A model generated the notes under the pieces. That model saw only the letters and a list, made by a program, of their open reading frames with translations. It did no database searches and was not told where the DNA came from. Positions 2,224-53,776 of a DNA stretch of 64,000 bases are shown here, piece by piece. Origin of the DNA: Actinocrinis puniceicyclus (GTDB lineage Bacteria > Actinomycetota > Actinomycetes > Streptomycetales > Catenulisporaceae); the NCBI RefSeq assembly GCF_018283645.1, contig NZ_JAGSXH010000009.1:1-64000 (forward strand). Reading direction: 5' to 3'. The position numbers were made by a program, and so were the translations under genes. Position 1 is the stretch's first letter. Every line of letters starts with the position of its first letter.

Positions 2224-3303
2224 TCACATCTCGGCTTCGGCGCCGGGCTCGTCCCGGTAGCGCAGCAGCAGCATGGCCGCGTCGTCTCCCAGCGGTCCGG
2301 CGCAGTGTTCGACGACGTCCTGGCGCAGCGCTTCGAGCGCGGCCTCGGGATCGTGCTCTTTGAGCCGGAAAGCGCGCTGCGTCAGCGGATAGAACTCACC
2401 GCGGCGGTTGCGGGCCTCGGTGACCCCGTCCGTGTAGAGCAGCATCTGGTCGCCCGGCCGCAACTGCACCTGGTGCGGGCTGGGTCCGTTGGGGCCGAGG
2501 GCGGCGAGCCCGAGCGGCGGCGCCGGTTCGGGCGGCTCGGCAAGCTGCACGGTGCCGTCCGCGCGCATCAGCAGTGGCGGCGGATGCCCGTAGTTCAGCA
2601 GCGTGACCGTGTGTCGCCGATCCACTTCAGCCAGCACCGCGGTGACGAATTCCTCGCCCTCCAGGCGGCGGTTGAGCGCGCGTTCCAATCGTGCCCCGAC
2701 GTGTTGCAGGGTGGGGCTGTCGGGCGCCGCTTCGCGGAAGGCTCCGAGTACGAGCGCCGCCGTCTCCACCGCCTCCAGCCCCTTGCCCTGCACGTCGCCC
2801 ACGATCGCCCGGGTCACCTGTGGACCGTTGACCACCTCGTAAAGATCCCCGCCGATACGGGCCTCAGCCACCGCGGAGGTGTAGGAGACCGCGACGCGCA
2901 TGTGACCGGCCAGGCGCGGCACCGGGCGCAGCAGCACTCGCTGCGCCGCCTCGGCCACTGAGCGCACACCCGCGAGTTCGCGTTCGACGCCGCGCCGCAA
3001 CCGCGCAGCCAGCGACGCGGCCACCGTCGCCCCCGCCACCGTGGCCAGCGCCACCGCGGCGCGGCGGGTGAGAAACAGCCCGTCATAGGCCGACGCCGCC
3101 GAGCACAGTGCGAACGCGAACACGCCGACCAGTACTGCGCGGCGCGCCGAGCCGCTGACCGATGCGAACGCCGGACCGAGCGCGAACAAGGCGAGCAGAC
3201 CCACGTCCGGACCGGCTAACACGTCCCCGGCGGCCACCAGCAGCATCGCCGCGAACGGCAGCCCCGCCAGCAGGCGGCGGCGTACGTGGACGGCTATCGA
3301 CAC
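2224..3303 (-). CDS. Membrane-anchored SpoIIE/RsbU-type PP2C serine phosphatase
   Basis: About 359 aa. The N-terminal 110 residues hold several membrane helices. A short linker follows, then a complete PP2C-like SpoIIE domain with metal-binding Asp motifs GGDLYEV, GDVQGKG and the C-terminal LGDDAAMLLLR. Such phosphatases dephosphorylate anti-sigma-factor antagonists (STAS proteins) in partner-switching stress signalling. No STAS or anti-sigma gene is adjacent. The start is GTG 3303, preceded by a good GGGAGGAAG Shine-Dalgarno. Palindrome C lies 35-47 bp upstream, within the likely promoter, so this phosphatase probably belongs to the same small regulon as the channel and the small acidic protein. 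Confidence 0.88.
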   Translation of the reverse strand: MSIAVHVRRRLLAGLPFAAMLLVAAGDVLAGPDVGLLALFALGPAFASVSGSARRAVLVGVFAFALCSAASAYDGLFLTRRAAVALATVAGATVAASLAARLRRGVERELAGVRSVAEAAQRVLLRPVPRLAGHMRVAVSYTSAVAEARIGGDLYEVVNGPQVTRAIVGDVQGKGLEAVETAALVLGAFREAAPDSPTLQHVGARLERALNRRLEGEEFVTAVLAEVDRRHTVTLLNYGHPPPLLMRADGTVQLAEPPEPAPPLGLAALGPNGPSPHQVQLRPGDQMLLYTDGVTEARNRRGEFYPLTQRAFRLKEHDPEAALEALRQDVVEHCAGPLGDDAAMLLLRYRDEPGAEAEM

Positions 3304-3337
3304 GACTTCCTCCCGCCGCGGACCGAATGAGCCACTA

Positions 3338-3350
3338 TTGCATGATGCAA
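3338..3350. promoter_or_regulatory. Palindrome C of the TTGCAT-N-ATGCAA set
   Basis: TTGCATGATGCAA is a perfect 13-bp palindrome identical to the core of palindrome A. It sits 35 bp upstream of the GTG start of the SpoIIE-type phosphatase, in position to block or activate its promoter. Confidence 0.6.
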
Positions 3351-3493
3351 GAGTATTACGCAGCCATCCTGGCCGACGAGGACGATTCCGCGCGGTCAAT
3401 CGCCTGGTTGCGGCGGCAGCGGCGAGGCGGCGGCAGCGGTTCGAGACTCATCGAGGCCCGGCGCGGTGCCGGATCCGGCTGCGACCGTCGCGC

Positions 3494-16428: not shown

Positions 16429-17448
16429 CTACACGACGCGCCGCACGGCGTCGATCGGCAGCATGTTCCAGGGCCCGTACTGGATCGGCTGCCCGGTCGT
16501 CGGTGCGTGCACGACCAGGCCGCCGCCGACGTAGATCGCCATGTGTTCGTTGCCGTTGTAGAAGATCAGGTCTCCGGGCTGAAGGTCCGCCGGGCTCGGC
16601 GCGACCGCGTAGCCGTCGAGGACTTGGTCGTAGGTGGTGCGGCCCAGTTGCACCCCCGCGGCCTTCCACGCCGCCTGGGTCAGGCCCGAGCAGTCGTAGC
16701 CGGGGTCGCCGGTGCCGCCCCACTGGTAGTAGATGCCGATCTTCGACTTGGCGAACGCCACCGCGACGCCCGCGCGCCCGGAGACCTGCGGCAGCGCGGC
16801 GATCCGGGCGGCGGTGATGCTCCAGTCGACGTTGACCGGGCTGATCTGCTGCTGCTGGGCGAAGGTGAGGCCGGCCAGCAGCGCCTGGGCCCGCCGGTTC
16901 TTCGCCACGATCTGCGCCCGCAGCGCCGCGGCCCGGTTCTCGGCCTGCTGGAGTTGCGCGAGCCGGTCGGCGGCCTGCTTCTTCAGCGTGGTCAGCTGCG
17001 CCTGCTCGGCCTTGAGCGACTTGAGGGTCATCGCCTCGTTCTGGCCCAGTTGCCTGGCCGCCAGCGCCCGCTGCAGATATTGATCCGGGTTCTGCGACAG
17101 CATCAGCGTGAGGGTCGGGTCGACCGAACCGGAGCGGTACTGCGCGGCCGCCAGCGGGCCGAGAGCGCCGCGCAGCGTGTTCATCGACTGCTGCGTCGCG
17201 ACCGACCGGCTCTGGATCAGGTCGATCTGCCGGTGCAGCGCGGCCGTCTGCTCGGCCGCGGCGTCGTACTGGTTGGTCGCCGCCTCGGACTGCTGCTCCA
17301 GCGTCTTGACCTGGGCCTGGACCTCGGCGACCGAGGCGGCGTGTCCGGCGGTCGCGGACAACCCGACACCGGTGGCCGCCGCCGCTCCGGTCGCGGTGAG
17401 GGTGACCGCGGCGCGGATCGGAAGCTTCGTGCGTCTGTGCGAGACCAT
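16429..17448 (-). CDS. Secreted NlpC/P60 peptidoglycan endopeptidase with coiled coil
   Basis: About 339 aa from ATG 17448 (GGAG upstream); ATG 17463 is the alternative. A signal peptide ends near GHAASV. A long coiled coil follows (about 35-190: EVQAQVKTLEQQSEAATNQY, KSLKAEQAQLTTLKKQAADR), then the NlpC/P60 domain with catalytic Cys in GYDCSGLTQAAW, His in EHMAIYVGGG, and a polar third residue near VVHAP. It should cut D-Glu-mesoDAP or LL-DAP bonds in peptidoglycan stems, like the RipA/RpfB-partner hydrolases used in daughter-cell separation. The coiled coil probably restrains or positions the enzyme. I looked for a ydaO-type c-di-AMP riboswitch upstream and did not find one. Confidence 0.9.
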   Translation of the reverse strand: MVSHRRTKLPIRAAVTLTATGAAAATGVGLSATAGHAASVAEVQAQVKTLEQQSEAATNQYDAAAEQTAALHRQIDLIQSRSVATQQSMNTLRGALGPLAAAQYRSGSVDPTLTLMLSQNPDQYLQRALAARQLGQNEAMTLKSLKAEQAQLTTLKKQAADRLAQLQQAENRAAALRAQIVAKNRRAQALLAGLTFAQQQQISPVNVDWSITAARIAALPQVSGRAGVAVAFAKSKIGIYYQWGGTGDPGYDCSGLTQAAWKAAGVQLGRTTYDQVLDGYAVAPSPADLQPGDLIFYNGNEHMAIYVGGGLVVHAPTTGQPIQYGPWNMLPIDAVRRVV

Positions 17449-17740
17449 GCGGCGCGTCTCCATCCACGGTGGGGCCGACGCGTGGGCGGCGTCGGCATCG
17501 TGTGCCGACACCGCGCCCGGTCAAAGGGGCTGCGGACCAGGCGCAGGCCGGCTCGAATCCGTGCCACGAACATCCCGGCGTTTCGGTTCACCGTGGGCCT
17601 CAATCGCCCTGACGCGGAAAAGGGTGCGCCCCGCGCTGTCGTCACCGGCCCCTGCCTGCCTCCACTACTGTCGGTAGCGCGTAATAACGTGGTTGATGCA
17701 CCGACAGGCGACAGAACCAGCGAACGGGGACTGACCGACC

Positions 17741-39471: not shown

Positions 39472-39815
39472 CACTGTTCACAGTTCGCACGTAGCTGAAC
39501 CGATCCGCGCGTCCAGCGACGGCACCGCGAACCGCCCTTTCGGCCTCATCCGTTCGGGTGACCGACCGGGAACCGTCGCCAGCCTGGCCGAACGAGGCCG
39601 GAGCCGCTCCCGCTTGTCCCTCGATCGAATGGTTGATCGTGGAAGACCCACGCGCCGCGTTGCCCAGTCCGGCAGACTTGCCACACCTGCTGTTCCGGGT
39701 GGGGCGAGTTGTCCGGCTCCGAATGCGCGGCTTGCGCGCCGCCGACCGGACGCTGACGAGACGGGCGTACGGTCGGGTGGTGGGCGGCGGGTACTTGGAG
39801 AGGACGCCACTACCC
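39472..39815. other. Stretch between lipoprotein and phosphatase genes
   Basis: The open frame of the downstream phosphatase continues upstream to GTG 39558, but the translation here is Arg-rich and unlike its family. I treat it as the promoter or leader region. No dyad or repeat of note is visible. Confidence 0.4.
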
Positions 39816-41849
39816 GTGTCTTGGAAGCCCGATGCGCCGTTCCCGGCGTTGTCCGAGTCCGTCGTGCCGCGCCAGGCGGCTCCGGCTCCCCGCATCGTGC
39901 CGGATGGCAGGGCGCTCGACGATTGGGCGCCGAATGCCGCAGCACTGAATGAGACCGCACTGGATGACACAGCGCCCGATTACCCAGCGCCCGACTACCC
40001 AGCGCTGACCGACGACTCCTGCCGCGACGACACCTCCGTGAGTGGCTCGATGCTGAAGAACACAGCCCTGCGCGATCCGGGTTTCGACGAGTTCGGCGAC
40101 GGATCGGCCGATGCCCGGCGGTACCCCGCCGGCGACGGCCACCCGATCGGCGAGCGGGTCGGCGCCCTGCTGGCGGCCGCCCTGGGCGCGGCTCCCAGGG
40201 CGATCGCGCTGGTGCGGGACCACGAGCATCGGGTCGACTTCGTCAACCGCGCCTTCCGGGAGGCGTTCGGGCTGCGCGCCGAGGCCGGCGGACCACTGGC
40301 GCGCCTGGTCCCGCAGTTCGCTCAGCTCGGCCTGCTCGACGCGCTCGACCACGTCTTCGCCACGGGCACGGTGTTCATCGCACCAGAAGTGCGCGTCAAC
40401 GGATACGGCCCGGCCAAACGCCCCGCGGTCCTGCGTGTGACCTGTTCGCCGGTGCATCAACCCGAGGGTGGTCCGGTCACAGGCGCGCTGGTCGACATCA
40501 TCGACTGCACCGATCAGGTGGTGGCCGTCGACCGTCTGCGCGCTGGAGAGCGCCGTCACCGGTACGCCGCCGTCGCGTTGCAGCGGTCGCTGTTGCCGCA
40601 ACGTCTTTCGCAACCGGACGACCTGCGAATCGCAGGTGTCTACCTGCCCGGCGCCGCGGACAACGCACCCGAGTATGCGACGGACATCTGGCGGCGCGTT
40701 AACTCGCCGGGCGAGTACCAGGTCGGGGGCGACTGGTACGACGTGATCCCGCTGGGTGCCGGGCGGACCGCGTTCGTCATAGGAGACGTGATGGGCCGCG
40801 GCGTGCACGCCGCGGCGGTGATGGGCCAGTTGCGGGCGGCGGTGCGCGCGTATGCGGCGGCGAATCTGCCGCCCGGCGAGCTGCTGCTGCACCTGGACCG
40901 GCACGCGGCCGAGTTGGAAGGCGTCGCCTATGCCGAGAGCTCGGCGAGCGCGGGGGTCTGCGACTTCGGCGCGCTGGCCACCGCCGTGTACGCGGTCTAC
41001 GACCCGGACGAATGCGTGCTCACGTACGCGAACGCCGGCCACCCCGCGCCTCTGCTGCGCCTGCCGGAGGGCATGGTCGTGGACCTGGACGCCGCCGGCG
41101 GTCCGCCGCTCGGCACCGGGGAGTGGACCTGGCAGGAGGCGTGCGTCACCGTGCCGCCGGGCTCGTACCTGACGCTGTTCACCGACGGTCTCGTCGAGCG
41201 GCGCGGCGTGGACCTCGACGACCAGCTCACCCGGCTGCGCAAGATCCTCGCCGGGGCGCCTCAGCTGCCGGCGCCGCGTTCGGCCGAGCGGCACGCGCCG
41301 CGCCGGATCGGGCCGGTGGACCTGGTGCGCGACGAACTGCTGGCCGGGATGGATCTGCCCGCCGACCACGACGACGACGTGGCGCTGCTGGTCGTGCACG
41401 TGCCGCGGTGGCAGGGGGAGCGCGCCGGGTTGTTCCGCTCGGCCGGGATCGACCTGGTCGGCGGCACCGAGATCGCTGCGCACGCCCGCGCCTTCGCCTC
41501 CGGGGTGCTGCGCGGCTGGCACATCGGCGAGGAACTGTGCGACACGGGCGTGCTCGCCGTCAGCGAACTGGTGGCCAACGCCGCCACCCACGGAAGGCCG
41601 CCGGTAAGACTTCGGCTGCGGCGCACGGACCGCAGGCTCATCGTCGACGTCTACGACGGCGACGACCATCTGCCGCGGCGGCGGCTGGCGAACGACACCG
41701 ACGAGAGCGGCCGGGGCATCGGTATCGTCGCCACCCTCGCCTCGTCGTGGGGGGCGCGGCTCCTGGGTACCGGCAAGTCAGTGTGGTGCGAGTTCGCTCT
41801 CCCGGCACCGCGCGAGTCAGCGCGGCGAGATCAGCCTCCGAGCACATGA
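39816..41849 (+). CDS. PAS-SpoIIE-HATPase multidomain phosphatase
   Basis: About 677 aa from GTG 39816, which has GGAGAGG 12 bp upstream; GTG 39558 is the longest alternative. A repetitive acidic leader (APDYPAPDYPAL) is followed by a PAS-like sensor domain (about 130-240: APRAIALVRDHEHRVDFVNR). Next is the SpoIIE PP2C phosphatase (about 250-535) with metal motifs GGDWYDVIPL, IGDVMGRG and HDDDVALLVVHV. The C-terminal HATPase_c2 kinase domain has VLAVSELVANAATHGRPP and DESGRGIGIVATLASS. It combines phosphatase and anti-sigma-type kinase activities in one protein, as in Streptomyces osmotic and developmental partner-switching proteins. Its STAS partner is not adjacent. Confidence 0.87.
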   Translation: MSWKPDAPFPALSESVVPRQAAPAPRIVPDGRALDDWAPNAAALNETALDDTAPDYPAPDYPALTDDSCRDDTSVSGSMLKNTALRDPGFDEFGDGSADARRYPAGDGHPIGERVGALLAAALGAAPRAIALVRDHEHRVDFVNRAFREAFGLRAEAGGPLARLVPQFAQLGLLDALDHVFATGTVFIAPEVRVNGYGPAKRPAVLRVTCSPVHQPEGGPVTGALVDIIDCTDQVVAVDRLRAGERRHRYAAVALQRSLLPQRLSQPDDLRIAGVYLPGAADNAPEYATDIWRRVNSPGEYQVGGDWYDVIPLGAGRTAFVIGDVMGRGVHAAAVMGQLRAAVRAYAAANLPPGELLLHLDRHAAELEGVAYAESSASAGVCDFGALATAVYAVYDPDECVLTYANAGHPAPLLRLPEGMVVDLDAAGGPPLGTGEWTWQEACVTVPPGSYLTLFTDGLVERRGVDLDDQLTRLRKILAGAPQLPAPRSAERHAPRRIGPVDLVRDELLAGMDLPADHDDDVALLVVHVPRWQGERAGLFRSAGIDLVGGTEIAAHARAFASGVLRGWHIGEELCDTGVLAVSELVANAATHGRPPVRLRLRRTDRRLIVDVYDGDDHLPRRRLANDTDESGRGIGIVATLASSWGARLLGTGKSVWCEFALPAPRESARRDQPPST

Positions 41850-46295: not shown

Positions 46296-47324
46296 TCAGG
46301 ACGTGCTGCCGGCCGGGCTCGTCGTGTCCTGACCCACCGGCCACTGCGGCACCTGGGCGTACGGGCGTGCCGCGCCGATGTAGCCGCCGAAGCCGTCGAT
46401 CGAGTCGAAGCGGATCGTCGCGCCCGTGTGCGGGGCATCGATCATCGCGCCGCCCCCCACGTAGATGCCCACGTGATGGATCGTCGTCGGGTCGCTCAGG
46501 TTGGACGCGAAGAAGACCAGGTCACCGGGCTGCAACTGACTGCGTGGCACATGCGGGCCGGCATACCACTGGTCTGCCGCGACACGTGGGATCTTCACAC
46601 CGACGCTCGCGTACGCCGCCTGCGTCAGACCGGAGCAGTCGAACTCGCCGTGCTCTGCCACGGTGCCGGTGCCGCCCCACAGGTAGGGCGTGCCGAGCCG
46701 ATCGTAGGCGAACGCGATGGCGCGGACAGCGACGTCGCTCGCGGCGACCGTGCCGCTCGGGGCGCTGAACGCCTTCTCGAGAACTTTGATGTTCTTCACA
46801 TAGTTCTGGGTCTCGGCGATCGCGGGGACTCCGGCCGCGGCTATCACCGCGCCCGGGCCCGCGTTGTACGCCGCGAGCATGTTGTCGATCTGGTCCCCGG
46901 GCATCTTCGCGACCTGTTGAGCCAGCGCGCAGTCGTAGCGGGCCGCCGCGGGGATGGCGTCGGCCGGGTTGAAGATGTCCCGCTTGCCGTCACCGTCCCG
47001 CGGCGAGGACCAGTTCGGCCAGGTCCCCGGCATGAACTGGGCGATACCTTCCGCGCCGGCGGGCGAGACCGCCCTGGGGTCGAACGCGCTCTCCTGGTAG
47101 AGCTGCGCGGCCAGCAACGGCGCGCTGAGCTGGGAACAGGTCGTCCCGGCGGCCTCGATCAGGGAGGCGTACTCGGTCGGAACCGTGCCGGTCGCCAGGG
47201 AGGCGCGCGCCGCCTGGAGTTGTGAGCCGGTGATCCCTACCGCCACCACCGCGACCGCGCCGACGATGACGAAGGGAACCAGCAAAGTGCCCGTCAGAAT
47301 CCAGATCCACCGGCGTCCCGGCAT
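46296..47324 (-). CDS. Lytic transglycosylase + NlpC/P60 peptidoglycan hydrolase
   Basis: 342 aa. One N-terminal helix anchors or exports the protein (MPGRRWIWILTGTLLVPFVI). An SLT-type transglycosylase domain follows, with catalytic Glu in YQESAFDPRAVSPAGAEGIA and the GQFMPGTW-like segment. The C-terminal NlpC/P60 domain has Cys in FDCSGLTQAAYASVGV and His in IHHVGIYVGGG. It would cut both glycan strands and peptide stems. Adjacent and divergent to a type IV secretion-like operon, it has the role expected of VirB1: opening the wall for the machine. Confidence 0.92.
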   Translation of the reverse strand: MPGRRWIWILTGTLLVPFVIVGAVAVVAVGITGSQLQAARASLATGTVPTEYASLIEAAGTTCSQLSAPLLAAQLYQESAFDPRAVSPAGAEGIAQFMPGTWPNWSSPRDGDGKRDIFNPADAIPAAARYDCALAQQVAKMPGDQIDNMLAAYNAGPGAVIAAAGVPAIAETQNYVKNIKVLEKAFSAPSGTVAASDVAVRAIAFAYDRLGTPYLWGGTGTVAEHGEFDCSGLTQAAYASVGVKIPRVAADQWYAGPHVPRSQLQPGDLVFFASNLSDPTTIHHVGIYVGGGAMIDAPHTGATIRFDSIDGFGGYIGAARPYAQVPQWPVGQDTTSPAGSTS

Positions 47325-47534
47325 CGCGGCCTCCTCCCCTCGCGCAAGCGCCCTGGTCAGTCAGCTTGGCGCGTTCACAGTCCGGCCACGGCGGCGAGCC
47401 CTATGATAGAGGCGGTGGTGACGAGGCGTCAGTCTTCGCACTTCAGAATCGAGCGCTCCTGTTCGACTGCGCAAAACACCCTCATACTGGCAACACTGGA
47501 CGACAACGACCAACCCGAGGACCGGGGGTGCAGC

Positions 47535-47891
47535 GTGCTGACTCTCCTTACGACACTGCCCGCCCACGCCGAGTGGCACACACTGCTACCTGCGGCCAGC
47601 GGTGGGAATATCAATACGATCATCGGAGGGATCGCGCCGGACTGGGGCCCCTTCGGGAAGGTCGGCCAGCAGGCACGGGTGATGATCGAGGTCATCATGG
47701 CGGCGGCGATCCTGCTCTGCCTCGGCATCGCCATCTGGGGCGCGGCCAAGCAACGCATCGGCGCTACCGCTCTGCGCGATTCGTTCAGCGCCGAGCAGGG
47801 CAAGGGTCTGATCGTGGCCGGGCTCACAGGCGTGTTCATCATCGGTTCGCTCGGCACCCTGTTCACCATCGTCTACGGCATGGCGATCTGA
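47535..47891 (+). CDS. Small two-helix membrane protein, VirB2/TrbC-like
   Basis: 118 aa from GTG 47535. A hydrophobic N-terminus (VLTLLTTLPAHAEW) is followed by two clear membrane helices: MIEVIMAAAILLCLGIAIWG and GLIVAGLTGVFIIGSLGTLF. They are joined by a short polar loop (AAKQRIGATALRDSFSAEQG). Size and topology resemble conjugative pilin subunits, and it is first in the operon. The assignment is inference from position and topology. Confidence 0.6.
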   Translation: MLTLLTTLPAHAEWHTLLPAASGGNINTIIGGIAPDWGPFGKVGQQARVMIEVIMAAAILLCLGIAIWGAAKQRIGATALRDSFSAEQGKGLIVAGLTGVFIIGSLGTLFTIVYGMAI

Positions 47892-48097
47892 GTCGTGGAC
47901 GAAGCGGCGGCGCGACGCCCGTCGGCGCGCGCGATGGTGTACACGCGGACCGGCGCGGGCCGCGCAAGCTGTAGCCAGGCGGAAAGCGGGGCAGGGGCCC
48001 AACGGCTGACGCGCGCAGAGTCTCTGGCGTGTAACGCGGCTCAACCGGTCCCGGGACCGGTGAGACTGGTTTCCATATCCACGAGGAGTGAGGCCTG

Positions 48098-48979
48098 ATG
48101 GCCCGCCCCTGGAGCCGAGCCGAACGAGGGTCATACGCGTTGGACACTGCGCAGAGCACGCCCGAAGCGCGCACGCGCGTCAAGTTGCCACCCGACCCGT
48201 ACCGAGACGACGAGCCGAGACCGGGCCGCGCCCGCCGACCGCTGATCCTGCTCGTGGCGCTGGCCGCCCTCGTCACCGTGATCACCATCGTGAACCGCAG
48301 CACCCACCAATCCGGCGGCCCGGCTGCCGCGGGCCAGTCCGCGCCCTCCGCCGGCTCGTCCGACACGAACGCCGCGGCGGGCGCGACCGGCCCGGTGGCC
48401 ACGCCGTTCCAGAACAGCGGCCTGCCCGCGAACACGGCCGACGGCGTGCCGATCGGGTATCCGCACACGGCGAAAGGCGCCGAGTCGGCGGCCGCCAACT
48501 ACGTCGTCGCCTACTCGTCCTCGGAGATGGTGACTCCGAGCGCGCGGCACCGGCTCATCGACGCGATCGCCGACCCGGCCATAGCCTCCAGCCTGCAAAG
48601 CCAACTCGACACCGCCTACACCCAGGTGGCCAGCAGCCTCGGGCTCTCTGCGGACGGCGTCGCGCCGGCCGGGCAGACCTTCGTCCAGCGCAGCGCCCCG
48701 GTCGGGGTCACGCTGGTCAACAGCAGCGGCCAGAGCGCGACCGTCTCGGTGTGGGCCGTCACGATCGCCGGCCTGGCCGGGGCGGGCTCGACCCATCCCG
48801 TCGCGGAGGACTGGTCCACGATCACCGTGACCCTGCACTGGACCGGAGGGGACTGGAAGTGGGTCTCCTTCTCCGCCGCGGACGGCCCGGTGCCGGCCGG
48901 CGGACAGCAGACCGTGTCCGGAAGCAAGGACCTGCAGAAGGCCGTCTCTCAGTTCGGGGGGTTGCGCTATGCCCGGTGA
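48098..48979 (+). CDS. VirB8/TcpC-like secretion component
   Basis: 293 aa from ATG 48098 (GAGGAGTGAGG upstream). A cytoplasmic head of about 45 residues precedes one membrane helix (RRPLILLVALAALVTVITIV), an Ala/Ser/Gly linker, and an extracytoplasmic domain (about 105-285) with NTF2-like alternation (ESAAANYVVAYSSSEMV, STITVTLHWTGGDWKWVSFS). This bitopic layout is that of VirB8 and TcpC scaffold proteins of type IV machines. It overlaps the next gene by 11 bp. Confidence 0.68.
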   Translation: MARPWSRAERGSYALDTAQSTPEARTRVKLPPDPYRDDEPRPGRARRPLILLVALAALVTVITIVNRSTHQSGGPAAAGQSAPSAGSSDTNAAAGATGPVATPFQNSGLPANTADGVPIGYPHTAKGAESAAANYVVAYSSSEMVTPSARHRLIDAIADPAIASSLQSQLDTAYTQVASSLGLSADGVAPAGQTFVQRSAPVGVTLVNSSGQSATVSVWAVTIAGLAGAGSTHPVAEDWSTITVTLHWTGGDWKWVSFSAADGPVPAGGQQTVSGSKDLQKAVSQFGGLRYAR

Positions 48980-50303
48980 CACGCTGATCCGCGCCGCCGG
49001 CGACGCCTGCGCGTTGCTGCCCGGTTCGCTCAATCACGCCTGCGAGAACACGCGCAAGCTGGTAGGCGACTCAGGCAGCGGCGCCGGGCCCAACGGCAGC
49101 GCCGGCGGCGGCGCCTCGACCGCGTCGCTGCTGTCCGATCCGGTCGGGGCGATCGCGCACGACTGCGCCCAGGCGGCCTCTTCGGTCATCAAGGCCGTGT
49201 CCTCCGTGGTCGACGGGGCGACCACGGTGGACTTCACCAACTCCGGTTTCCTGACCCAGTACGCGATCGTGTTCGCCGCCTCCGCGATCCTGACCGTGGT
49301 GCTCTGGCTGCTCGCGGTGATCAAGCGGGCGGTGCGCGGCGAGTCCATCGTGACCGCGCTGTCCGAGGCCACCGGCTTCCTGTGGCTCGCGGTCGGCGCT
49401 TCCGCGTTCACGCCGGTGATCCTCTACGGAATGGTGCGTGTGACCGACTCGGTGACCAGCGCCATCGGCTCGGGCACGGCGAGGGATACGAACAACTTCC
49501 TCACCTCGTTCGCGAACACGATCGACCCACCGAACGGGCAGAGCGCGAACCTCGGCGGCGGCCCGATCCTGCTGATCTTCGTCTCGCTGATCGCCATGAT
49601 CGCCGCGGCGGTGCTGTGGGTCGAGTTGCTGATCCGGGCCGCGATGCTGTACGTCGGCGCGGCGCTCGCGGCGACCGTCTACGCGGGCCTGGTGGACAAG
49701 TCGCTCTGGCACCACATCAGGCGCTGGGCCGGCATGATGATCGCGGTGGACCTGGCGAAACCGGTGGTCGTCATCGTGCTGGGGCTGGCCACCGCCATCT
49801 CCGGAGGCAACACCGGGCAGGGCTCCTTCGGCTCGGTGCTCTCCGGCCTGGCCATCATGCTGCTGTCGATCTTCGCCTCCGGCCTGATCTTCCGCTTCGT
49901 GCCGAGCTTCGGCGACGACATGCTGGCCATCAACGGCGCCCGCTCCGCCGACGCGCCGGCCGAGGCCGCCGCGGGCTCGATGGACGGGCCGGCCTCGCGG
50001 ATGAGGCAGGGCATCGCGGCTCACGCCGGCCGCAGCGGCAGCCCGATCGGAGCCAACCCCATGGCCGGACCGGCGGTCGCCGCGCTGGGCATGTCGGCGG
50101 GCCTTGCGGCCCACGGGGCACGCACCGCCGTGCGGCTGACGACCACGCGTAACCCAGGCAACGGCGGACAGCCTTCGGTGCCGCCGCCCATGCAGCCGCC
50201 CGCCGCTCTCCCGCGCGAGGGAGTGCCCGGACGCGCTGCCGATGCGGTTCGCGGGGCGCAGGGGCGCGGCGCGCCTGACGCCGGACGCGGAGGAACGGCG
50301 TGA
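48969..50303 (+). CDS. TrbL/VirB6-like polytopic membrane protein
   Basis: 444 aa. A soluble N-terminal part with two Cys (about 10-30) and a Gly/Ser stretch is followed by six or so membrane helices (about 95-330: YAIVFAASAILTVVLWLLAV, LWLAVGASAFTPVILYGMVR, GPILLIFVSLIAMIAAAVLW, LLIRAAMLYVGAALAATVYA). The C-terminal tail is disordered and Pro/Ala/Gly-rich. TrbL/VirB6 proteins form the inner-membrane channel in type IV secretion. The stop overlaps the next start by 4 bp. Confidence 0.75.
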   Translation: MPGDTLIRAAGDACALLPGSLNHACENTRKLVGDSGSGAGPNGSAGGGASTASLLSDPVGAIAHDCAQAASSVIKAVSSVVDGATTVDFTNSGFLTQYAIVFAASAILTVVLWLLAVIKRAVRGESIVTALSEATGFLWLAVGASAFTPVILYGMVRVTDSVTSAIGSGTARDTNNFLTSFANTIDPPNGQSANLGGGPILLIFVSLIAMIAAAVLWVELLIRAAMLYVGAALAATVYAGLVDKSLWHHIRRWAGMMIAVDLAKPVVVIVLGLATAISGGNTGQGSFGSVLSGLAIMLLSIFASGLIFRFVPSFGDDMLAINGARSADAPAEAAAGSMDGPASRMRQGIAAHAGRSGSPIGANPMAGPAVAALGMSAGLAAHGARTAVRLTTTRNPGNGGQPSVPPPMQPPAALPREGVPGRAADAVRGAQGRGAPDAGRGGTA

Positions 50304-51823
50304 CGGCAGAGGGTTACGAGCGCCGCCGCTCGTTCCTGATCGGCAAGGCCAAGCCGAACGCGATCGTCGGGCGCAACCGGGAGACCGGCGAACTGGCCGT
50401 GTTGGTGGTCGCGTGCGCACTGGCGATGATCGCGGCCTTCGTACTCCCCACCCTCTTCCTCAAGATTCTGATGATCATCGGACTGCCGGCGGCCGGCGCG
50501 GCGGTGATCTTCCTGCCGTACCGCAAGCGCACGCTGTACCGATGGTTCGAGATCGACCGCAGTTATCGGCGGCTGTTGCGCTCGGGCCAGGCCCGCTACG
50601 CCTCGGCCGCCGTGGAGGCCGGTACCCGGCTCGGCGGCCGCCCGCTGCCGGTGGCCGGCCCGCCCGGGATCGGCCGCGTGCGCTGGCTGACCGCCAACTT
50701 CGGGCCGGACAAACTCGCGGTCCTGATGCACCTGGACCGCGGCACGGTCACCTGCACGCTGGAGATCGAAGGGCCGGGCGTCGGCTCCCGGGACGCCGAG
50801 GACCAGGAGGCCCTCGTCGACCGGTTCGGCACCCTGCTGCGGCACGTGGCCAACGGAGACGGCTTCGTGACCCGGCTTCAGATGCTCGCCCGCACCCTGC
50901 CTGCCGACCCCGACGCGCACGCCAAGGACGTGCTCCGGCGCGGTGATCCCGAGGCGGCGCAATGGCTGCGGGATTCTTACGACCATCTGGCGTCGATGGT
51001 GTCGACCTCCAGCGAGCAGCACCGTGCGTATCTGACCGCTTCGATGCCTTACACGCGTGAACTGGCCACCGAAGCGCGGGTCATGGCCGGAGGCGCGGAC
51101 GCGGACCACGGTCTATGCGTCATCATGGTGCGTGAACTGACCGACATCTGCGCACGGCTCGCGGACGCCGATATCAAGGTCCGCCGACCGTTGGACGTGG
51201 CCGCACTGGCCTCGCTCATCCACTCCATGTACGACCCCGAACACCCGATCGACCACTTCGAGGCGATGGCGGAGCGCGACGCCTGGCCGGCCGAGTTCGA
51301 CGGCTCCGGGCCGCTGTTCCTGCGAGCCAAGACCCGCGAGTCGGCCACCGGCGAGCCGTGGTGCCACGCCACCGCGTGGATCCGCGAGTGGCCGCTCACC
51401 CCGGTCTCGGTGAACTTCCTCGCCCCGCTGCTGGTGCACACCCCGGACGTGATCCGTACCGTCGCCGTCACCATGGACCTGGAACCGACCGAGGTGGCGA
51501 TCGAGCGGATGCTGACCGAGAAGGTGAACGTGGACGCCGAGGACCGCCGCCAGGCCAAGCTCGGCCGGATCGACGACCCGCGTGAACGGGCCCACTCCTC
51601 CCGGGTCGACCTGCGCGGCGAGGACCTGGCGGCGGGCGCCGCTGGCGTCAACCTGGTCGGCTACATCACCGTCTCCTCGCGTTCGCCGGAGGCGCTGTCC
51701 CGGGACAAGCGCACCATCCGCGCGTCCGCGGGCAAGTCCTTCCTGAAGCTGGAATGGTGCGATCGGGAACACCACCGCGCCTTTGTCAACACCCTGCCAT
51801 TCGCGACCGGCGTGCGGAGGTAG
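50300..51823 (+). CDS. SCO6880-family protein (PrgI-like membrane part, VirB4-N-like domain)
   Basis: 507 aa. Two membrane helices near residues 32-70 (LAVLVVACALAMIAAFVLPT) are followed by a large soluble domain. That domain resembles the N-terminal, non-ATPase part of VirB4, which is encoded here as a separate gene. The family is known to me as SCO6880 in actinobacteria and accompanies stand-alone VirB4-like ATPases. No Walker motif is present. It probably docks the ATPase to the membrane complex. Confidence 0.78.
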   Translation: MTAEGYERRRSFLIGKAKPNAIVGRNRETGELAVLVVACALAMIAAFVLPTLFLKILMIIGLPAAGAAVIFLPYRKRTLYRWFEIDRSYRRLLRSGQARYASAAVEAGTRLGGRPLPVAGPPGIGRVRWLTANFGPDKLAVLMHLDRGTVTCTLEIEGPGVGSRDAEDQEALVDRFGTLLRHVANGDGFVTRLQMLARTLPADPDAHAKDVLRRGDPEAAQWLRDSYDHLASMVSTSSEQHRAYLTASMPYTRELATEARVMAGGADADHGLCVIMVRELTDICARLADADIKVRRPLDVAALASLIHSMYDPEHPIDHFEAMAERDAWPAEFDGSGPLFLRAKTRESATGEPWCHATAWIREWPLTPVSVNFLAPLLVHTPDVIRTVAVTMDLEPTEVAIERMLTEKVNVDAEDRRQAKLGRIDDPRERAHSSRVDLRGEDLAAGAAGVNLVGYITVSSRSPEALSRDKRTIRASAGKSFLKLEWCDREHHRAFVNTLPFATGVRR

Positions 51824-51826
51824 CCG

Positions 51827-53389
51827 ATGGCCCGCGGAAGCCTGACCGACCTGCTCGCCGACGCCTTCACCACGGTGCTCTTCGGCAAGAAGGACACCAC
51901 CCGGCTGCCGGTGCGCACCTCGACCAACCAGGCCGAGGCGATCTACCTGCCGACCGCCGCGCCCGGCCTCGGCGACTCCGGAGTGATCATCGGACGCGAG
52001 GTGTACAGCGGCAAGGGCTACATCTACGACCCGTTCCAGCTCTACGGCCAGCAGTTGCCAGCCCCCCACTGGCTGGTGCTCGGCGAGTCCGGCAACGGCA
52101 AGTCCTCGCTGGAGAAGACGTACGTGCTGCGCCAGCTGCGGTTCAAGGACCGTCAGGTGGTCGTGCTCGACGCGCAGGGCGAGGACGGGGTCGGCGAGTG
52201 GAACCGGATAGCCGAGGCGGTGGGCGTCACCCCGATCCGGCTCGATCCGCATCACCGCGGCGGCGCGGGCATCCGGCTCAACCCGCTCGACCCGGCGATC
52301 ACGCTCACCGGCCAGCTCGCCCTGCTGCGCACGATCATCGAGGTCGCGCTCGGGCATCCGCTCGACGAGAGGTCCGGTTACGCGCTCAAGGCCGCACACG
52401 CGACGGTACGCGCTGACTCGCTGCGCGCCGGTGTGCAGCCGATCCTGCACCACGTCGTCGAGGCGTTGCGCGAGCCGAAGCCGGCCGCGGCCGAGGAGAT
52501 GAACGTAGGGATCGACGAGGTGCGCGACTGGGGCCTGGACGTGGCTCTGGTGCTCGACCGGCTCGTGGACGGCGACCTGGCCGGCATGTTCGACGGCCCG
52601 ACCACGGCGGGGATCGACCTGGACTCGCCGCTGATCGTCTTCGACCTGTCCACGATCGACCGCAACTCGATCGCGATGCCGATCCTGATGGCGATCGTGG
52701 GGGTCTGGCTGGAGCACACCTGGATCAAGCCGGACCGCAAGAAGCGCATCTTCCTGGTGGAGGAGGCGTGGCACATCATCAACTCCCCCTCGGTGGCGCA
52801 GCTGTTCCAGCGGCTGCTGAAGTTCGGCCGCCGGCTCGGCCTCTCCTTCGTCGCGGTCGTGCACCACCTGTCCGACGTGGTCGACGGGGCGGCGGCCAAG
52901 GAGGCCGCGGCGATCCTGAAGATGGCCTCGACCCGCACCATCTACATGCAGAAGTCCGACGAGGCGCGCGCCACCGGACGAGTGCTCGGCCTGCCCCGGT
53001 GGGCGGTGGAGATCATCCCGACGCTCTCGCCCGGCATCGCGGTCTGGGACGTGAACGGCGATGTGCAGGTGGTCAAGCACATCGTCACGGAGATCGAGCG
53101 ACCGCTGGTCTACACGGACCGCGCGATGACCGAGTCCTCGGACGAGGAGGAGGCCGGGGCGGACGCGCTGGACGACCTGCCGCCGGCGTTCGCGAACGCC
53201 GAGTCCGAGTCCGAGCCGGATCGGCCGCAACTTCCGCCGGGCGCCCGCGCGAACGCCAGGGCGCTGCCGCCGGGAACCGGAAAGCACTCCGGCCGGCCGG
53301 AGGCCGAGGACCCGGACCTGACCGCGATCGCCGCGGCGGTCTTCGGGCCGCGAGCGAGCAATCCGAGCCATACCCGCCGCGGGGCCTGA
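51827..53389 (+). CDS. VirB4-like secretion ATPase
   Basis: 520 aa. The Walker A motif is GESGNGKSS at 86-94. Walker B-like sequence is KKRIFLVEEAWHIINSPSVA, followed by the family's LLKFGRRLGLSFVAVVHHLS and STRTIYMQKSDEARAT segments. The C-terminal 60 residues are acidic, Pro-rich and probably disordered. The gene begins 3 bp after the SCO6880-like stop. VirB4 ATPases power substrate and pilus-subunit movement in type IV systems. No VirD4-type coupling protein or relaxase gene is in the window. Confidence 0.87.
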   Translation: MARGSLTDLLADAFTTVLFGKKDTTRLPVRTSTNQAEAIYLPTAAPGLGDSGVIIGREVYSGKGYIYDPFQLYGQQLPAPHWLVLGESGNGKSSLEKTYVLRQLRFKDRQVVVLDAQGEDGVGEWNRIAEAVGVTPIRLDPHHRGGAGIRLNPLDPAITLTGQLALLRTIIEVALGHPLDERSGYALKAAHATVRADSLRAGVQPILHHVVEALREPKPAAAEEMNVGIDEVRDWGLDVALVLDRLVDGDLAGMFDGPTTAGIDLDSPLIVFDLSTIDRNSIAMPILMAIVGVWLEHTWIKPDRKKRIFLVEEAWHIINSPSVAQLFQRLLKFGRRLGLSFVAVVHHLSDVVDGAAAKEAAAILKMASTRTIYMQKSDEARATGRVLGLPRWAVEIIPTLSPGIAVWDVNGDVQVVKHIVTEIERPLVYTDRAMTESSDEEEAGADALDDLPPAFANAESESEPDRPQLPPGARANARALPPGTGKHSGRPEAEDPDLTAIAAAVFGPRASNPSHTRRGA

Positions 53390-53412
53390 GCCGAGCGCCC
53401 GCCGGTCAGGCC
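53383..53412. terminator. Bidirectional terminator-like hairpin spanning both stop codons
   Basis: GGCCTGA (53383-53389) pairs with TCAGGCC (53406-53412). The two stop codons of the convergent VirB4-like and 65-aa genes lie in the arms. The 16-nt loop is GC-rich. Confidence 0.5.
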
Positions 53413-53603
53413 GAGGCGGCGCGCTGCTCACACGGCCAGGTGCGGCCGCACAGGCAGTAGTCGGGGCCGTTGGCGATCGCGACCAGGCCGTGTACGTCGC
53501 GCGAGACCGCCGCCGCGGCGAGGCAGGCGCCCGAGCCCATCTCGTCCACGGCGCGAAGCGCCGGGATCCAGCGTGTGCCGTCGTACAGGACTGTGCCGTT
53601 CAT
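53406..53603 (-). CDS. Small Cys-containing protein (65 aa)
   Basis: Starts at ATG 53603 with a good CCAGGAGAG Shine-Dalgarno. The sequence MNGTVLYDGTRWIPALRAVD, then a hydrophobic helix ACLAAAAVSRDVHGLVAIAN, ends in YCLCGRTWPCEQ. The CxC...C cluster may bind a metal. I recall nearly identical small proteins at the equivalent place in Streptomyces genomes, without known function. Confidence 0.68.
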   Translation of the reverse strand: MNGTVLYDGTRWIPALRAVDEMGSGACLAAAAVSRDVHGLVAIANGPDYCLCGRTWPCEQRAASA

Positions 53604-53776
53604 GCGCTCTCCTGGAAGCCAAGGCGATGCGACTTGACGGGGCGTCACGTGACCCGTCGTCCTGACACGTGCAACGAGCGGCCCGTGCTCCCGTTACGGC
53701 GTCCGAGGTTGATCGTCGGGCCTGGACGGCGTTTGGTCCGGTTCTGGGTGAACGCCACGGTCGGTGTGGTGCGGGC

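Follow-up and report, generated by a model that had tools for sequence, protein, structure and literature searches.

A cmd/tgdA locus in Actinocrinis puniceicyclus and its probable domestication from a conjugation-type machine

Introduction

The cmd genes of Streptomyces, which in Streptomyces coelicolor are the co-transcribed genes SCO4126-4131 (cmdA-F; Xie et al., 2009, PMC2782261), were identified in 2009 as sporulation genes, with no mechanism assigned to them. Their role in sporulation, their organization as a single transcription unit and their induction during aerial growth have been described in Streptomyces; CmdB is reported to be a membrane-located ATPase with homology to VirB4, and SCO6878, SCO6880 and SCO6881 are reported to resemble cmdB, cmdC and cmdD, respectively (PMC2782261). 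SCO4132 is tgdA, which encodes a putative secreted lytic transglycosylase and has the same antibiotic phenotype as cmd (PMC6585502), and SCO4130 is listed as a membrane glycoprotein (PMC6593405). In the present work, we describe a locus at positions 46,296-53,389 of a 64,000-nucleotide stretch of DNA (the whole of which is referred to below as the window) from the draft genome (430 contigs) of Actinocrinis puniceicyclus, whose genes are, as judged from their sequences, orthologues of S. coelicolor cmdB-F (SCO4127-4131) and tgdA (SCO4132). It is highly probable that this locus is the version of cmd/tgdA found in a Catenulispora relative, and that it is a resident and domesticated part of the chromosome; the kinship with Catenulispora is judged from 75% identity to named loci and from the family label.

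The cmd null mutants of Streptomyces sporulate poorly and form 8% and 6% anucleate spores compared with 0.1%, and they also exhibit aberrant branching, collapsed hyphae, uneven nucleoids and over-production of actinorhodin; these phenotypes are complemented by the genes and have been seen in three species (PMC2782261). A cmdA null mutant is described as wild type for sporulation, and residue K90 of CmdB is required (PMC2782261); by hand count, K90 is the Walker A lysine if its numbering follows that of the protein at one Streptomyces-type locus (L163). A type IV-like channel for DNA was raised by the discoverers in 2009 as a question for study, and deletion of cmd is stated, with data not shown, not to affect how an SLP2-derived plasmid is transferred in S. 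coelicolor (PMC2782261). A different survey has described a defective integrative and conjugative element (ICE) near the middle of the chromosome in all of 11 Streptomyces strains (PMC9513070). The defective ICEs of that survey are like cmd in that VirB4 is present and integrase, relaxase or coupling protein is missing; cmd is unlike them in being conserved across an order and in having orthologues with mutant phenotypes in Streptomyces.

The proposals that are new here are the identification of CmdE as VirB8, of CmdC as a VirB3-like segment joined to the N-terminal domain of VirB4, and of CmdA as a VirD4 homologue without the Walker A lysine-Ser/Thr, together with the residence of the locus in its order.

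Results

Orthologues of cmdB-F and tgdA in the window

The locus consists of five genes on the forward strand and a divergent wall hydrolase gene, as follows:

46296..47324, minus strand: TgdA (SCO4132) orthologue, VirB1-like wall hydrolase with SLT and NlpC/P60 domains and one N-terminal transmembrane (TM) segment
47403..47891, plus strand: CmdF orthologue, small protein, VirB2/pilin-like in size and place, two TM-like segments
48098..48979, plus strand: CmdE orthologue, putatively VirB8-like, one TM segment and an NTF2-like domain outside
48969..50303, plus strand: CmdD orthologue, polytopic, TrbL/VirB6-like, six TM-like segments
50300..51823, plus strand: CmdC orthologue, SCO6880 family, VirB3/PrgI-like membrane segment followed by a probable VirB4 N-terminal domain
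51827..53389, plus strand: CmdB orthologue, VirB4 C-terminal ATPase with AAA_10 match, Walker A motif and match to PDB 4AG5
53390..53776, no strand: position of cmdA in Streptomyces, where tblastn and profile searches found nothing similar

These genes were mapped to cmdF, E, D, C and B through gene order and the resemblances given in PMC2782261, and the sequences used for comparison were those of named Streptomyces loci, not S. coelicolor's own. The orthologues of CmdB-CmdF are present in the order F, E, D, C, B, and S. coelicolor cmdABCDEF with tgdA has the same genes in the same order with the hydrolase likewise divergent, the difference being that the window lacks cmdA. It is nonetheless assigned to cmdB-F because cmdA is dispensable for the sporulation of S. 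coelicolor. The window proteins share about 70% (CmdC) and about 84% (CmdB) identity with the Streptomyces loci, whereas CmdE and CmdD are far less alike (medians of 41% and 49%, named loci).

The earlier note, which was made from the DNA letters and a list of open reading frames (ORFs), had described six genes with these coordinates, and the ORFs bear this out, including the joints of the cmdE-cmdD-cmdC-cmdB series (an 11-bp overlap, a 4-bp overlap and a 3-bp gap). A gap of 206 bp between cmdF and cmdE was not mentioned there, and the true start of cmdF may be the GTG at 47535, near which the conserved part of CmdF begins. What the note missed was that the operon is a published one (cmd/tgdA) and that a gene for a coupling protein survives in Streptomyces as cmdA.

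The hydrolase and the putative channel proteins

The TgdA orthologue matches the Pfam families SLT (2.3e-17) and NLPC_P60 (1.2e-25), its median identity over 58 named loci is 57.8%, and the same double domain is found in the hydrolase of the plasmid relatives described below. CmdF has a median identity of 83.8% over 66 named loci and is 43% and 39% identical to the small plasmid protein at the corresponding place; no family match for it was found in Pfam or in a second family library. CmdD has a homologue in the plasmid protein that occupies the corresponding position, and its Pfam match to TrbL_4 is only sub-threshold (E 0.026). The putative roles of CmdD and CmdF are assigned from TM pattern and place alone.

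For CmdE, Pfam gave nothing usable and its profile (A4) was unmatched among solved structures. A structural model built from 43 sequences has a mean pLDDT of 88-97 per ten-residue block over residues 111-260, and in the VIA-align comparison, where rows less than 1 apart in Z count as tied, the first 25 rows are all type IV proteins (DotI, IcmL-like, VirB8, CagV, TrwG, TraE and TraM; Z 12.8-10.4, rmsd 2.4-3.7, 107-134 residues), the first other NTF2-like protein standing at 10.2. The order of these matches, together with the gene context, suggests that CmdE is VirB8-like, and the listing of SCO4130 (CmdE by the mapping) as a glycoprotein fits a domain outside the membrane. The family calls of the earlier note thus fare unequally: the hydrolase, SCO6880 and VirB4 hold by sequence, VirB8 by the structure model, TrbL falls below threshold, and the pilin-like protein has no family match.

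Evidence for a VirB4 divided between CmdC and CmdB

CmdB matches the VirB4-type Pfam family AAA_10 (E 2.9e-13) and the solved C-terminal domain of VirB4 (PDB 4AG5, E 5e-6); its Walker A motif (GESGNGKS, residues 86-93) is intact, the motif FLVEEAW is located at 309, and its median identity to the named loci is 83.6%. CmdC belongs to the SCO6880 family (SCO6880_fam NF042935, E 3.6e-58). The five best structural matches of its low-confidence model are all to residues 8-393 of the R388 protein TrwK/VirB4, aligned with model residues 112-504 (Z 8.0-8.3, rmsd 4.7-9.1), and the next, unrelated chain has a Z of 5.7; a Pfam match to PrgI (VirB3-like) is present in 5 of 40 members of the CmdC family. 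CmdC is therefore best read as a probable VirB3 segment joined to the N-terminal domain of VirB4, and the model match and the PrgI matches together support a VirB4 that is split between CmdC and CmdB. This split, newly recognized here for cmd, is what the earlier note had proposed for the window. The R388 (Trw) system shares with the window the VirB8 fold and the VirB4 N-terminal domain, in CmdE and CmdC by structure comparison, and differs from it in that the R388 VirB4 is one chain. The CmdC profile (A1) matched only two designed proteins among solved structures, and full-length VirB4 (TIGR00929, E 1e-60) was found in 0 of 149 genomes of a phylum sample, which leaves no fused VirB4 to compare with CmdC by profile.

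Decay and loss of the coupling protein

The Streptomyces gene that follows cmdB, which is cmdA by position, encodes a homologue of VirD4 (hhalign probability 100, E 6.2e-53, 313 columns), and a Pfam match to TraG-D_C is present in 9 of 16 CmdA rows. The Walker A lysine-Ser/Thr is found in none of 15 aligned CmdA sequences (the row L112 was left out of this alignment) compared with all 18 of the mobile VirD4 proteins, and P-loop remnants of CmdA such as REGRRT stand opposite REGKT of VirD4. A larger count covered 74 CmdA ORFs, of which 14 scored at most 100 against a marker block and were left out; GK[ST] occurs in none of the other 60 in the 70 residues upstream of the next conserved block. 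Seven of the 14 were inspected and none showed GK[ST], L121 being too short to tell, and the other seven, short or out of frame, were not judged. Another of the seven, the CmdA of one genome from a third family of the order (G015), reads GPARSGKA.

In the window, tblastn (E up to 0.05) found no remnant of cmdA between 53301 and 54400, and a search with the cmdA profile gave four matches at chance level (best E 0.39), none of them in the window. A cmdA gene is missing after cmdB in 9 of the 52 named loci with room for it, viz. all three of Catenulispora and six titled Kitasatospora or Streptomyces. No match to the cmdA profile lies beside cmd in 13 genomes of the same family (21 genomes searched), nine of which have VirD4-like matches elsewhere. 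Across the sequences compared, apparent stages in the loss of VirD4 are thus shown, from the intact lysine-Ser/Thr (plasmids) through GKA (one genome) and no P-loop (Streptomyces CmdA) to the absence of the gene (window). A Pfam scan of 38 window ORFs, beyond which there are further, mostly smaller ORFs, detected no integrase or relaxase family. The statement of the earlier note that coupling protein, relaxase and integrase are lacking agrees with these scans of the window, and needs amending for Streptomyces, where the coupling gene persists as a cmdA without a P-loop. The CmdA profile (A2) had only unrelated matches among solved structures, apparently through its membrane part and a proline/alanine-rich linker, and in the open-licence literature we found no paper in which CmdA is described as the relic of a coupling protein.

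Distribution and conserved neighborhood

A CmdC homologue is present in 41 of 41 near relatives, and CmdB is found in 146 of the 147 sampled genomes of the order (E up to 1e-60); it is unmatched in G712, in two pieces in G703 and G722, and partial in G751. In a sample of the class, CmdC is present in 45 of 393 genomes (E up to 1e-40), all from the same order except G047, whose contig stops 58 bases past the CmdB match, and in a sample of the phylum it is present in 12 of 296 genomes, including three of another class at 32% identity. As far as sequence matches can tell, the cmd orthologue is confined to one order nearly without exception, with one genome outside it. No CmdC relative was found in viral contigs, which gave 47 pattern matches only.

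Among the 80 named loci, sequence for 5.5 kb or more upstream of CmdC is available in 61; hydrolase (minus strand), F, E, D and C follow in this order in 57 of them, which makes the cluster more than a chance arrangement; the hydrolase gene is at most 2 kb from cmdF in 40 of these 57, and in the other 17 it may be a different, more distant hydrolase gene. In two genomes of the same family (G001 and G003), the gene order matches that of the window on both flanks, and in a Streptomyces-type genome of genus g4 (G027) the cmd-PiT and Nudix-CHAD-ppk blocks adjoin and are mutually inverted. The similar block at an equivalent place in Streptomyces that the earlier note mentions is thus essentially borne out, with the same neighbors but in rearranged form, the block being locally inverted relative to the ppk side. 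Its central claim, a resident and relaxase-free type IV-like operon, is upheld by the 146 of 147 genomes and by a single chromosomal clade (see below); patchy distribution, which it had named beforehand as grounds for giving up residence, was looked for and not found. A recent mobile element is ruled out by the distribution, the tree and the conserved neighbors.

Two observations concern individual loci. The genomes with cmdB in two pieces (G722 and G703; loci L162 and L163) are Streptomyces-type, and both assembly error and true damage are possible. The three loci from another actinobacterial class (L152, L153 and L154) each include a TgdA-like hydrolase gene that is divergent from the rest of the cluster; VirB4 is followed in L152 and L153 by a VirD4-like gene whose Walker A position reads GPTQSQKT, unlike the usual motif, and the contig of L154 ends too early.

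Relatives on plasmids

A tblastn search of 72,556 plasmid records identified relatives of CmdC in 100 and of CmdB in 195, none with more than 60% identity; the best plasmid identities to the window are 41% (CmdC) and 49% (CmdB). Eleven annotated plasmid stretches were viewed, and all ten of those with a CmdC gene have a TraM-recognition/TraG/VirD4-type gene after VirB4, either directly or with some small genes in between. Six of these ten (L150, L151 and L166-L169) also show a gene for a MobF or TraA-like relaxase within the stretch. Transfer clusters of actinobacterial plasmids (for example NZ_CP109145, NZ_CP108436, pMDJK44.2 and NZ_CP109316) have the same order as the window from the small TM protein to VirB4, with a wall hydrolase alongside, but VirB4 is followed there by VirD4 and several of the clusters include a MobF relaxase, neither of which was found in the window. 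The remaining stretch, from pSglau1 (L149, 6498-14160), has in a related cluster an FtsK/SpoIIIE-domain gene instead of VirD4; its VirB4-type ATPase begins a 717-residue protein, and no SCO6880/CmdC match was found in it.

In trees of CmdB (20 chromosomal and 19 mobile-type rows) and of CmdC (20 and 18 rows, pSglau1 being absent for want of a match), the chromosomal copies lie on one side of a branch with support of 99/98, and the plasmid systems of Streptomyces are nearest to the chromosomal clade.

Discussion

Proposed origin and task of the Cmd machine

We lean slightly towards a scenario in which a single event domesticated an entire conjugation machine before the order radiated, and the machine now serves development, the decay series of VirD4 marking this change and the split VirB4 alone driving a cargo or envelope task at septa. 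A conjugation-type machine, whose likeliest origin would be a plasmid transfer system, was probably taken up into the chromosome a single time, no later than the common ancestor of the order, and retained for development and not for its own transfer. In such a machine TgdA would open the wall, CmdF, CmdD and CmdE would form a membrane and wall-side channel, and CmdC and CmdB would act inside as a split VirB4 motor that spends ATP to assemble or drive the channel; the coupling ATPase would have decayed because it was no longer used. No counterpart of VirB7, VirB9 or VirB10 was seen at the window cluster, and their absence is expected in a single-membrane cell. Type IV systems without a VirD4 coupling protein are known to work, viz. 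Ptl of Bordetella, VirB of Brucella and ComB of Helicobacter, and in these a VirB4 channel is functional without VirD4, as is proposed for the window, but they are two-membrane systems for protein export or DNA uptake and have other gene orders.

The case is strongest for residence and descent and weaker for the task of the machine. Our tentative suggestion is that Cmd, at cross-walls or sporulation septa, exports a protein or has a task in the envelope, and that the mutants' defects in segregation would be a consequence of losing this activity; such work is favored over a DNA channel because the coupling protein is dead or absent whereas the wall hydrolase and VirB4 are kept. If CmdE is VirB8, CmdC and CmdB a split VirB4 and CmdA a dead VirD4, this would explain why cmdA is dispensable and cmdB is not, and the task of Cmd would become a testable question, viz. 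whether it is a channel, what passes through it and whether FtsK is needed. The window represents a natural version of cmd without any coupling protein, which is useful for complementation.

Several observations weigh against parts of this scenario. CmdE is the only channel protein that is confidently modelled, and Foldseek alone places the NTF2-like domains of ARC6 and CaMKII first for it, with CagV/VirB8 fifteenth; the model of CmdC is of low confidence (mean pLDDT 45.5), and its VirB4 match consists of five rows of one protein. The trees are midpoint-rooted, and long branches among the mobile rows make their deeper order unsure. The GKA form of CmdA comes from the single genome G015, and the usual flanks are missing around the operon in a Catenulispora-type genome (G002). 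CmdA might still contribute without ATP, and a coupling protein from elsewhere in the genome (VirD4-like genes on contigs C10 and C113, with a TrwC relaxase on C42) could act on Cmd. Function in A. puniceicyclus would be carried over from Streptomyces, and no cargo, secreted product or channel was found in the literature.

Alternative explanations

The discoverers' suggestion is that Cmd is a DNA channel, in which CmdB, perhaps with FtsK or another SpoIIIE-type motor of the cell, moves chromosomes through the closing sporulation septa. It accords with the uneven nucleoids and anucleate spores of the mutants, for which a type IV-like DNA channel was proposed by the authors (PMC2782261), and the related cluster of pSglau1, which adjoins an FtsK/SpoIIIE-domain gene and has no VirD4-type gene found after VirB4, makes an FtsK-type partner possible. 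However, no CmdC homologue was found on that plasmid, the DNA-feeding ATPase of the cmd cluster itself is decayed or gone, and the branching defects and collapsed hyphae of the mutants (PMC2782261) speak for a broader defect of the envelope; we regard a DNA channel as rather doubtful. An active system for conjugation or cell-cell transfer, with relaxase and coupling protein encoded elsewhere, appears improbable. The draft genome does have TrwB-family (VirD4-like) matches, on C10 and C113 only, and its only TrwC-family relaxase match, other relaxase families not having been searched genome-wide, is on C42, a different contig from the window, but the coupling gene of C10 belongs to its own cluster of pilin-like, VirB8-like, TrbL-like, SCO6880 and VirB4 genes, the chromosomal clade retains its neighbors across much of the order, and the unaltered transfer of the SLP2-derived plasmid in the deletion strain (PMC2782261, data not shown there) also argues against it.

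That cmd is a decaying remnant, a defective ICE that is widespread by chance, is very improbable. The cluster is without integrase, relaxase or a working coupling protein, CmdB is matched in two pieces, in part or not at all in the four genomes named above, and the defective ICE that is present in all of the surveyed strains (PMC9513070) is in our view probably cmd. Against a remnant stand the high conservation between the window and the named loci (medians of 83.6% for CmdB and 83.8% for CmdF), the intact Walker A of CmdB and the mutant phenotypes, complemented and seen in three species (PMC2782261); the phenotypes already largely refute this explanation. If the all-strain element of PMC9513070 is cmd, it would be a core machine and not a wreck, and would illustrate how a conserved machine of the chromosome may end up being counted among defective mobile elements. 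A role in defence, against phages or otherwise, to which PADLOC matches of CmdB (best mad8, E 1.6e-10) might point, was rejected and is the faintest of the prospects considered: these matches are to ATPase models only, the other five proteins are unmatched, and most defence systems are not so nearly universal within a single order.

Neighboring genes and other transfer genes of the draft genome

The composition of the cluster is unremarkable (G+C of 0.69-0.72 in 2-kb windows). The flank on the PiT side contains genes for PHO4/PiT, DUF47 (PhoU_div), an SCO4651-type lipoprotein and an SDR protein, and that on the ppk side genes for a MutT1-like Nudix protein, CHAD, ppk, a two-domain GNAT protein (mshD-like) and GlnR; the families that the earlier note had named for these flanks (PiT, Nudix, CHAD, ppk, mshD and glnR) were all matched in the Pfam and library scans. 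A second NlpC/P60 protein is encoded at 16429-17511, distant from the cluster. Phosphatase domains of the SpoIIE type are present in two window genes (39558-41849 and 2224-3399), and in six of seven compared genomes a relative of the former is found no more than about 20 kb from cmd, the contig of the seventh being short. Genes for SpoIIE-type phosphatases are numerous in these bacteria, and the proximity of this one to cmd may be due to chance.

The cluster on C10 (L156, 5000-12385) is a second one of the SCO6880 type, with an intact VirD4, and it adjoins genes for an NlpC/P60 hydrolase and a cytochrome P450; no relaxase was seen on C10. The VirD4-like genes in nine of the 13 family genomes are related to that of C10, and further related loci are L170, L171 and L172. 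Additional pieces of VirD4 and SCO6880 genes are located on C113, C321 and C424. A lone, diverged SCO6880-like gene is present on C415 (L158, 8816-9994), where no other transfer gene was matched in 19 kb, and short matches similar to this gene occur in G001, G003 and G005.

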